Of a stretch of DNA of 34,860 nucleotides, positions 23,288 through 26,374 are shown in pieces; the stretch's first letter is position 1; every line of letters begins with the position of its first letter. Under the pieces are notes generated by a model. The model was not told the DNA's origin. It was given only the letters and a program-made list of their open reading frames with translations, and ran no database searches. The position numbers and the translations under genes are program-made. The stretch comes from Candidatus Yonathbacteria bacterium CG_4_8_14_3_um_filter_46_25. Lineage in GTDB: Bacteria > Patescibacteriota > Minisyncoccia > Phycocordibacterales > UBA1539. Location of the stretch: NCBI GenBank assembly GCA_002788135.1, contig PFQT01000051.1, positions 1 through 34,860 on the forward strand, in the 5' to 3' direction.

Positions 23288-23617
23288 TTATCGGTTATCA
23301 CCACTGCCACCAAGCATCCCCCGCTCCTTGCGGGAAAAAAGTTTTTCTATGTTTTTTCGCGCGATGTCGTCAAGCTCAAGACCGAGTTCCGAAGCGACCT
23401 GCGCCACGTACCAGAGCACATCGCCGAGCTCTTTTTTAATCTCCTCGCGTTTTTCCGGAGAAACCTCTCCACCGTCATCGCGAATCACTTTTTTTATCTT
23501 CTCGGCAACCTCGCCCGCCTCACCAACAAGACCAAGCGTCGGGTAGATATAGTTCCCGCCAACATCTGGATACAATGCCGTTTTTCGCGATTCTTTTTGA
23601 TATTTACTAAAATCCAT
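23288..23617 (-). CDS. MazG-like nucleotide pyrophosphohydrolase
   Basis: LGLVGEAGEVAEKIKKVIRDDGGEVSPEKREEIKKELGDVLWYVAQVASELGLELDDIARKNIEKL (EExxE...ExxD pattern). Start at MDFSKYQKESRKTALYP. Confidence 0.9.
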   Translation of the reverse strand: MDFSKYQKESRKTALYPDVGGNYIYPTLGLVGEAGEVAEKIKKVIRDDGGEVSPEKREEIKKELGDVLWYVAQVASELGLELDDIARKNIEKLFSRKERGMLGGSGDNR

Positions 23618-23623
23618 ACGGCT

Positions 23624-23629
23624 ATTGTA
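23624..23629 (-). promoter_or_regulatory. -10 box (TACAAT) of mazG-like gene
   Basis: Minus strand TACAAT-N6-ATG. Confidence 0.5.
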
Positions 23630-23652
23630 GCACAGTAACCGGCGCAAAAGAA

Positions 23653-23699: not shown

Positions 23700-24821
23700 C
23701 TATCCCGACCACGCGATTTCACGATCCTTGAAGTGTTTCGAGAGTGACGGACCGCCGCCTGTGTAATGCGAACCGGCACCTTGTCCATAGAGCCGGTTAG
23801 GCACTTCTTGCGTCCTCTCAAACACCATTCGACAAATACGCTGGCCGTCATAGAGACGCTGAGGAACGTCCCTGGCCCGCACTTCGAGCACAACATGCGT
23901 TCCCGCCTTACCGCCGAAACCATTATCGAAGAAGCCGGCATAATGACTGCGGAACTCTCCCGATGATACATCGTAGGGAACGATCTCCGCGCAACAGGTA
24001 GGTGGGATTCTTACCCGTTCTTTGGTTGTCAGTAAATAAAATCTGCCGGGCGTCAACACTAAATCATCATTCCGCGGCCGCTTGATCGGAATCCAGAAAT
24101 CTTCGACCTCGTGATGGCCGTTTCCCGAAAGATCAAGACAGGCAGTCGGATTTGCCTTTGCCTCGAAACCGACGACATCCCGGCTAAGATCAATATGAAA
24201 AAAGTACCCCCGATTAAAGATTTCAACATCGTCAAGCGGCATTACGCCGCCGTCTTTGCCGTGTATGACTCCATACTCCGAGTGAAGCGCCGCAAGCGCG
24301 CCATCCGAGAGCAACTCTTCCCGGTCACGCACGCGGAATTGCGTCATTTCAAGGCCGGGCGTGATAATCGTATTGAACGAGAGAGGCATGATCTCAAGAT
24401 ACAGCGGGCCGTTATATCCCGCCTCCGTGCGATCGTATTGCGTCTCATGATCAACAATGACCCGAACGAACGTATCGGTCCTTCCGATTGAACTTTTTGG
24501 AGAAGCAACCGCGGAGAACTGTTTCGCAAGCGCCAAAGACTCGTTGAGAGGAACAAGATAACACGCCCCGCGCGTCAGCATCGTTCCGGTCTCCTGAATC
24601 GCAAAATTAAACGGAGAGAAGCGATCGATTAAATCCGCCACTCGCTCGCCTTGCGATGGGAGCGCCGCCACATTCATGTGGTACACTCGATCACCAAGCG
24701 AGCAGTCAACCGTCGCCATCTGAATCTGCGCGTCGCTGATCGCTCCTCTTCGCGAGCGTATCATCGGGTCCTCGGCGACGCCTTGCGCGATACCTCGAAG
24801 TGTCTGCATGGGCAGTATCAT
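23700..24821 (-). CDS. Two-domain dCTP deaminase-like protein (DCD family)
   Basis: First half SPKSSIGRTDTFVRVI...GYNGPLYLEIMPLSFNTIITPGLEMTQFRV; second half FRSHYAGFFDNGFGGKAGTHVVLEVRARDVPQRLYDGQRICRMVFE. AGAAGGAGA SD upstream. Confidence 0.85.
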   Translation of the reverse strand: MILPMQTLRGIAQGVAEDPMIRSRRGAISDAQIQMATVDCSLGDRVYHMNVAALPSQGERVADLIDRFSPFNFAIQETGTMLTRGACYLVPLNESLALAKQFSAVASPKSSIGRTDTFVRVIVDHETQYDRTEAGYNGPLYLEIMPLSFNTIITPGLEMTQFRVRDREELLSDGALAALHSEYGVIHGKDGGVMPLDDVEIFNRGYFFHIDLSRDVVGFEAKANPTACLDLSGNGHHEVEDFWIPIKRPRNDDLVLTPGRFYLLTTKERVRIPPTCCAEIVPYDVSSGEFRSHYAGFFDNGFGGKAGTHVVLEVRARDVPQRLYDGQRICRMVFERTQEVPNRLYGQGAGSHYTGGGPSLSKHFKDREIAWSG

Positions 24822-24994
24822 TGAACATCTCCTTCTGTTGTGAAGTTCAAGTCTCCTTTCGTACTATCACAAAGCCATGAATAACGCAAAGTGTTGCCGA
24901 TGGCGCAACATTTGATCTTTTCGTCCCACTTCGTATACTCGACGGCAGAAGGTCATTGTCGTATCGTTATCAACCCTATAAGGGAGGCAGAGAA

Positions 24995-26374
24995 ATGCCC
25001 ATGTCAACTGAGAATTTGAAACATGTTGTTCGAAGAACGTCGAACGATGCGATGATACTCGTGCTCAACACGGGGGCGATCATCAATCCAGAAGCGGAAG
25101 CTATGCTCCAAGCGCTCCACTCGCGCTCGGCTGGAGGAATTGCGCGTCATCTTGAGGTACTCAAGAGAGAGGGTTCTGAGCGATTTATGTCCTTGTTCTA
25201 TGTCGGGTACGGACACAAGTCGATCGGCGACTGCGGCACGTGCACCATCTTCATCGAGGGTGTTTCGATGCTCGCCGCAAAAGCGATCCAGGATTGGCCG
25301 CTCTACTCGGGGCAAGAAGCGTCAACCCGATTCATTGATTTTGCCAAGCAGTCGTTTTTTGATCCAACAGATACGCCGGAAGGAACGGCGGTGCTCAATC
25401 GGTGGCGTTTGTTCTACCTGCGTGGAACCAGCGTTTTGCAAGATTTTCTCACGGAGAGATTTCCGAGACAAGCAGGCGAAAATGAGATTACCTACGAAAA
25501 AGCTATCAGGGCAAGGTCATTCGATGTTATGCGCGGATTTCTTCCGGCGGGAGCGGCGACCAATCTCGCGTGGCACACCAACCTGCGTCAGGCGGTCGAC
25601 CACCTTATGCTTTTACGCCACCATCCGCTTCACGAAGTACGCGACGTTGCCAATGCGATCGAAGACGCTCTCAAGGAAGCATTCCCAAGCTCGTTCGGTC
25701 AAAAGCGTCACGCGGAAATGGAGGAGTATAATGCGATGCTTTTGAGCGAACACATGTACTTCACTCGTAATAAGTGGCTCTGTAAGGAATTCGAGGTCGA
25801 GAGAGACGGTGTCGACAGAAGACAACTCGGACAGTACGAACACTTATTGCGCCGCCGACCGCCAAAAACCGAACTTCCGCGAATCGTTGGCGAATGCGGA
25901 ACACTGCAATTCGGATTCTGGCTTGATTTCGGTTCGTTCCGCGACGTACAACGACACCGGCCGGTCATTCAACAAATGCCACTGGTTGTTACGGACATCG
26001 GATTTGAACCGTGGTATCTTGACGAACTTCCTTCCGCGCTCAAGACGGAAGCGCAAAACCTCATTGAAGAACAAGATCGGGCGATCGCGCAGCTCAAGCG
26101 CGATGGAAATTTCCTGTCCCCTTTCGAGCGGCAGTATTACATCGCAATGGGATATCAAATCCCAAACCGTATCAGCGGGACCATTCCAGAATTCACTTAT
26201 CTCGTTGAACTGCGGGCGACGCGTTTTGTTCATCCGACACTCCGAAAACGTGCCCGGGAAATGGCGACGGCAATGCTTAAATTATATGGGGACTACGGGC
26301 TAGTCCTTCATCTGGATGACGACCACGATCGCTTCGATGTGCGACGCGGCGAACATGACATCGTGCAACGATAA
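24995..26374 (+). CDS. Double-domain ThyX-like (FAD-dependent thymidylate synthase-like) protein
   Basis: Half 1: QDWPLYSGQEASTRFIDF and LPAGAATNLAWHTNLRQAVDHLMLLRHHPLHEVRDVA. Half 2: VQRHRPVIQQMPLV and FTYLVELRATRFVHPTLRKRA. GGGAGG SD before the ATG at 24995. Confidence 0.8.
   Translation: MPMSTENLKHVVRRTSNDAMILVLNTGAIINPEAEAMLQALHSRSAGGIARHLEVLKREGSERFMSLFYVGYGHKSIGDCGTCTIFIEGVSMLAAKAIQDWPLYSGQEASTRFIDFAKQSFFDPTDTPEGTAVLNRWRLFYLRGTSVLQDFLTERFPRQAGENEITYEKAIRARSFDVMRGFLPAGAATNLAWHTNLRQAVDHLMLLRHHPLHEVRDVANAIEDALKEAFPSSFGQKRHAEMEEYNAMLLSEHMYFTRNKWLCKEFEVERDGVDRRQLGQYEHLLRRRPPKTELPRIVGECGTLQFGFWLDFGSFRDVQRHRPVIQQMPLVVTDIGFEPWYLDELPSALKTEAQNLIEEQDRAIAQLKRDGNFLSPFERQYYIAMGYQIPNRISGTIPEFTYLVELRATRFVHPTLRKRAREMATAMLKLYGDYGLVLHLDDDHDRFDVRRGEHDIVQR

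Follow-up and report, generated by a model that had tools for sequence, protein, structure and literature searches.

A tandem ThyX-like protein from a Patescibacteria genome with the canonical active-site residues divided between its halves

The locus and its two ThyX-like halves

The window, that is, the whole stretch of 34,860 nucleotides that was analysed, carries on its forward strand an open reading frame that encodes a protein of 459 amino acids, P0001, consisting of two ThyX-like halves. The frame, its coordinates, and both motifs are exactly as given by an earlier sequence-only reading of the same DNA. The parts of the locus are as follows (residue equivalents refer to M. tuberculosis ThyX unless stated otherwise).

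24982–24987, + strand: GGGAGG, likely ribosome-binding site for the start ATG at 24995 (read from the sequence)
24995–26374, + strand: coding sequence of the tandem ThyX P0001, 459 aa (sequence reading, relatives, and AlphaFold2 model)
24995–25729, + strand: half 1 (residues 1–245), ThyX-like, with the dUMP-side and FAD-phosphate-side residues and without RHR
25220–25222, + strand: S76, equivalent of Ser71 (FAD phosphate, subunit B role)
25280–25282, + strand: K96, a conserved Lys one helical turn past the position of the lost Arg87 (M92)
25292–25300, + strand: D100-W101-P102 at the half-1 RHR position
25322–25333, + strand: S110-T-R112-F113, equivalent of Ser105/Arg107/Tyr108 (T. maritima S88/R90/Y91)
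25532–25534, + strand: R180 of RxxLP, equivalent of R172 (T. maritima R147)
25751–26371, + strand: half 2 (residues 253–459), ThyX-like, with RHR and R407 and without SxRY
25943–25960, + strand: D317-x-Q319-R320-H321-R322, the RHR motif, in half 2 only
26213–26215, + strand: R407 of ELR, equivalent of Arg199 (T. maritima R174), dUMP activation

The segment from Q99 to F113 in half 1 (25289–25333) reads QDWPLYSGQEASTRF, the RHR codons of half 2 lie at 25952–25960, and the N-L-R-Q..LLR helix and ELRATRFVHPTLRKRA are both present. Half 1 had been described as keeping the Ser, Arg, and aromatic positions and losing RHR, and it does contain S110, R112, and F113, with D-W-P in place of RHR; the reverse description of half 2 is likewise correct, R320-H321-R322 being present and the SxR part lost.

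Direct searches gave a one-sided picture. The Pfam family Thy1 matches residues 48–232 of P0001 (E = 1.8e-14), half 2 (residues 253–459) alone had no match in direct family searches against Pfam and NCBIfam, and the score against the NCBIfam thyX equivalog TIGR02170 is 24.7 bits, below its cut-off of 87.9. A direct sequence search of P0001 against the PDB returned no ThyX match; the family profile matched ThyX there weakly.

In profile–profile comparisons, both halves are related to ThyX. Diverse first halves matched 22 canonical single ThyX sequences with 99.7% probability (E = 5e-26, 208 columns), diverse second halves matched canonical ThyX with 99.3% (E = 4e-20, 191 columns), and the two sets of halves matched each other with 95.8%. 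Half 2 of the window family reached only 58% against canonical ThyX directly, and 100% (E = 1e-43) against the diverse second halves. The AlphaFold2 model of full-length P0001 (pLDDT 83.2, pTM 0.82) retrieves ThyX in a fold search; for the model of half 2 alone (pLDDT 79.8, pTM 0.79), all 50 PDB matches listed are ThyX, with TM of about 0.5–0.7 and rmsd of 4–7 Å. Homology to Thy1 therefore covers the chain, by Pfam for half 1 and through intermediates and fold for half 2, and the objection that one half only is ThyX-like does not hold.

Division of the active-site residues among tandem ThyX proteins

A genome scan yielded 55 relatives with 45–61% identity, most of them full-length; almost all carry Candidate Phyla Radiation or Patescibacteria names. 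In total, 119 tandem proteins were aligned, and 60 further stretches were fetched. Residue numbers such as R95 and Ser105 below are those of M. tuberculosis ThyX, and paired frequencies refer to the close family and to the diverse tandems, respectively, with the degenerate L130 and L146 left out.

The split is present with identical orientation in 117 of the 119 aligned proteins, almost all from Patescibacteria; once the two degenerate proteins are left out, this goes well beyond what chance would give. In half 2, R95 (R320) is kept in 100/100%, H96 (H321) in 98/96%, R97 (R322) in 100/100%, and R199 (R407) in 100/98% of the sequences; in half 1, Ser105 (S110), Arg107 (R112), and R172 (R180) are each kept in 100/100%, and Tyr108 (position 113) in 98/98%. 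The complementary loss between the halves, noticed earlier in the single protein, thus recurs across the family, each role group being kept at 96–100% in one half. The half-1 RHR position is D-W-x throughout the close family and, in the diverse set, D in 50% and then mixed, and the S-x-R-Y positions of half 2 are L-x-T-T, with Tyr (Y381) at the position of R172.

Other contact residues follow this division to different degrees. The equivalent of Ser71, S76, is Ser in 100/92% of first halves and is not kept in second halves. Arg190, which has a subunit B role, is present in half 2 of 70% and in half 1 of 60% of the diverse tandems, and by alignment it does not fall cleanly to one half across the wider family. 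R208, the half-1 equivalent of R199, is Arg in the close family, and only 17% of the diverse tandems retain it. P0001 has F113 where 98% of tandem first halves have Tyr; in the aligned PDB sequence, C. glutamicum ThyX also has a natural Phe at this position. When the interface partners are summed, all FAD and dUMP contact residues are present except Arg87, which is lost from most first halves and whose role is possibly taken over by K96, conserved in 100/82%.

We based no conclusion on a short RHR match alone. In a set of 129 tandems, SxR[YF] precedes an exact RHR by more than 120 aa in 120, stands with a changed RHR in 8, and is missing in one that has RHR only, and a true contiguous RHR..SxRY motif within one half was found in none. 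The canonical arrangement of RHRx7-8S and SxRY in one unit is likewise absent from P0001, where RHR and SxR[YF] are about 207 residues apart. One apparent RHR..STRF match, in L039, was rejected as a chance match inside half 2 and not a complete motif. These alignments indicate that the split is ancient and general, and is neither peculiar to the window gene nor a recent decay.

Tandem ThyX also occurs in the Vibrio phages Yong and BONAISHI, in phage Tunturi_5 (Tunturiibacter phage), and on plasmids of Parabacteroides, Miltoncostaea, Euzebya (with Actinomycetota among the hosts), Bacillus, and Paenibacillus. The detected phage and plasmid forms are 23–32% identical to P0001, and the polarity of the split was identical in 10 of 10 examined. 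Tandem Thy1 proteins of Patescibacteria, phages, and plasmids thus have the double architecture and split polarity of P0001 but fall into several sequence subtypes, and four Firmicutes plasmid forms have RHN instead of RHR in half 2.

Some further features of these proteins should be noted. L130 (without SxRY) and L146 (RQG for RHR) have degenerate motifs in one half, a possible loss of function. The Bacillus and Paenibacillus plasmids (L158–L161) are 200–260 kb long, a phage-like size, and carry the tandem ThyX with RHN, in some cases beside helicase genes. In the C-terminal tail of P0001 (residues 441–456, window positions of about 26315–26362), which lies outside the canonical ThyX core, R451-G452 is invariant in the close family, and R451 is present in 75% of the diverse tandems.

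Thymidylate supply in the window genome and its phylum

The window genome is 828 kb in size and 99% complete. P0001 is its single Thy1 match; ThyA and a dUTPase of the PF00692 type were not found in this genome, no thymidine kinase scored above the cut-off, and SHMT is present. The check for another thyA or thyX gene, proposed with the sequence-only reading, thus leaves P0001 as the only candidate for a dTMP synthase.

Across the window's phylum, 103 of 291 genomes have a Thy1 match; judged by open-frame length, it is a tandem in 74 genomes, an ordinary single ThyX in 22, and unclear in 7. Full or near full-length ThyA is present in 127 of the 291 genomes, and 63 have neither enzyme. We observed near mutual exclusion: ThyA occurs in 1 of the 74 tandem genomes (G155), where 32.3 were expected (Fisher p = 3e-21, inflated because the test ignores shared ancestry), and in 0 of the 22 single-ThyX genomes. 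ThyX of the tandem form thus replaces ThyA both in the window genome and phylum-wide. The absence of ThyA does not in itself prove activity of P0001, because some bacteria of this phylum manage with no thymidylate synthase at all.

Two genes lie on the opposite strand beside the tandem thyX:

23288–23647, − strand: MazG-type nucleotide pyrophosphohydrolase, candidate for the dUTP-to-dUMP step (Pfam MazG, E = 1.1e-13)
23700–24821, − strand: two-domain dCTP deaminase (makes dUTP), divergent neighbour (NCBIfam PRK07559, 333.8 bits, cut-off 283)

Together they suggest a route from dCTP through dUTP and dUMP to dTMP, in which the neighbouring MazG-type enzyme may convert dUTP to dUMP. A MazG gene is near the tandem thyX in 12 relatives. 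A conserved thyX–dcd operon was expected, but the deaminase gene is near the tandem thyX in only 3 relatives.

Several genomes contain a long unusual ThyA-like protein of Patescibacteria: open reading frames of 480–550 aa that match ThyA (PF00303) over profile positions 90–227 only (genomes G011, G200, G037, G001, G103, G142, and others).

A composite active site and the origin of the tandem form

In M. tuberculosis ThyX, subunit A contributes RHR 95–97 to the binding of FAD, and Arg95 and Arg199 to that of dUMP; subunit B contributes Ser71 and Arg190 for FAD; and subunit C contributes Arg87, Ser105, and Arg107 for dUMP, with its Tyr108 acting as a lid (PMC6514825, review). The PBCV-1 structure is concordant, Gln75 and Arg182 coming from one monomer and Ser88 and Gln89 from the other (PMC3498832), and in T. 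maritima R174 activates dUMP (PMC8316439). No subunit source of R172 was found in the literature searched.

A composite site requires just such a split, because RHR with the C-terminal Arg, on the one hand, and S-x-R-Y, on the other, come from different subunits in the solved tetramers. Since the same division is present in more than 100 relatives, the two halves very probably join into one working site, and since every role is retained by a single half, one full site is expected per pair of half 1 and half 2. The earlier proposal of composite sites between the halves thus gains support from M. tuberculosis ThyX, in which RHR and R199 of A and S105/R107/Y108 of C share one dUMP and FAD; as far as the published structures allow, the doubt whether these residues belong to a shared pocket is also removed (PMC6514825).

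We therefore consider it likely that P0001 is a tandem flavin-dependent thymidylate synthase with an active site assembled from both halves. Half 2 would play the role of subunit A, its RHR holding the FAD phosphates and the flavin and R407 activating dUMP, and half 1 that of subunit C, with S110, R112, the aromatic residue 113, and R180 around dUMP. The Ser/Arg/aromatic group of half 1 would sit over flavin N5 and dUMP, while Ser76 of half 1 would fill the subunit B role. Two tandem chains together would restore the four-unit ThyX ring, with two complete sites and not four, and this dimer would convert dUMP to dTMP with methylene-tetrahydrofolate and NADPH. The dimer, the two sites, and the thymidylate synthase activity are all probable; the two halves that form a given site could belong either to the same chain or to two chains.

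The sequence-only reading had left two options, a true thymidylate synthase with fewer active sites or a neofunctionalised flavoenzyme, and the first is now clearly favoured. A neofunctionalised enzyme would bind FAD and a pyrimidine nucleotide without forming dTMP, for example for another C5 modification of dUMP or dCMP. The loss of Arg87, the change of RHR to DWP in half 1, Phe for Tyr at position 113, and the presence of ThyA in the tandem genome G155 are consistent with it. Nevertheless, the summed halves keep every canonical dUMP and flavin contact except Arg87, the exclusion of ThyA is the same as for ordinary ThyX, and P0001 is its genome's only dTMP-synthase candidate, so we regard this reading as improbable. 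The natural Phe of C. glutamicum ThyX also speaks against it, a comparison qualified by the report that this enzyme is unnecessary for thymidylate synthesis (PDB titles 3ge9, 3fnn).

A poorer explanation still is that a single half, half 1 or conversely half 2, is the enzyme, the other being a degenerate structural partner whose kept residues serve only for folding. Pfam and NCBIfam recognise half 1 only, as it would predict, but half 1 has no RHR, and RHR and R407 of half 2 rank with the best-conserved residues of the family (96–100%), which is not required of a passive partner. The unusual length and the weak scores against standard models might also suggest a decaying pseudogene or an assembly artefact; with an intact reading frame, a ribosome-binding site, highly conserved catalytic residues, and 55 relatives of the same anatomy in independent assemblies, we give this almost no weight.

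The tandem flavin-dependent synthase proposed here resembles canonical ThyX (PF02511; T. maritima, M. tuberculosis, PBCV-1) in the fold of each half, RHR, SxRY, the RxxLP Arg, the C-terminal LR Arg, the exclusion of ThyA, and, by prediction, an active site at a subunit interface (PMC3498832, PMC5954106, PMC6514825). It differs in having two units per chain, in that RHR and SxRY are never in one half, and in its two predicted sites versus four. Canonical ThyX has four identical sites of three subunits each, while the fused form shares the residues out by subunit role. Tandem ThyX would thus offer a natural experiment on which residues cooperate within a site. It would be a clear case of subfunctionalisation within a single polypeptide and a ready asymmetric ThyX, in which any site residue can be mutated in just one half. 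It would also supply the missing thymidylate synthase of many Patescibacteria, where it can score under the standard annotation cut-off.

Databases already contain tandems, under the names "FAD-dependent thymidylate synthase" and "thymidilate synthase-like" and in PHROG 36506; no published description of a tandem or split ThyX was found in the literature searched, which covers few subscription journals. The chlamydial ThyX (CT632) is also about twice the usual length, and it is reportedly an active enzyme (Griffin et al. 2005, JBC). Should its residues be divided likewise, the activity of a tandem ThyX, and with it part of our finding, may already be known. The C. trachomatis enzyme has been assayed for NADPH oxidation (PMC3498832).

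The tandem could have arisen by duplication of one gene or by fusion of two diverged thyX genes. In a tree of the halves, the main type falls into one clade of first halves and another of second halves, and the second type (L140, L083, L081, L124, L090) makes up a pair of its own; a single origin of all first halves was not rejected (AU p = 0.274). Repeated origin, each time with SxRY going to the first half and RHR to the second, appears rather unlikely to us; it would comprise the main type of Patescibacteria, the second type with NSEQQSQRY, and the Firmicutes plasmid type. If it were true, division of a multi-subunit site between fused copies would be a predictable outcome.

Candidates for an unfused two-gene form were rejected, G256 being a tandem interrupted by a contig end and G030 and G192 a permuted single ThyX. 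Circularly permuted single ThyX proteins of 306–308 aa that match PHROG 85 are encoded in L163 (1910–2833, + strand) and L164 (1607–2524, − strand), with the Thy1 profile in the order 60–190 and then 12–58. A permutation of this type could naturally pass through a tandem ThyX as its intermediate.
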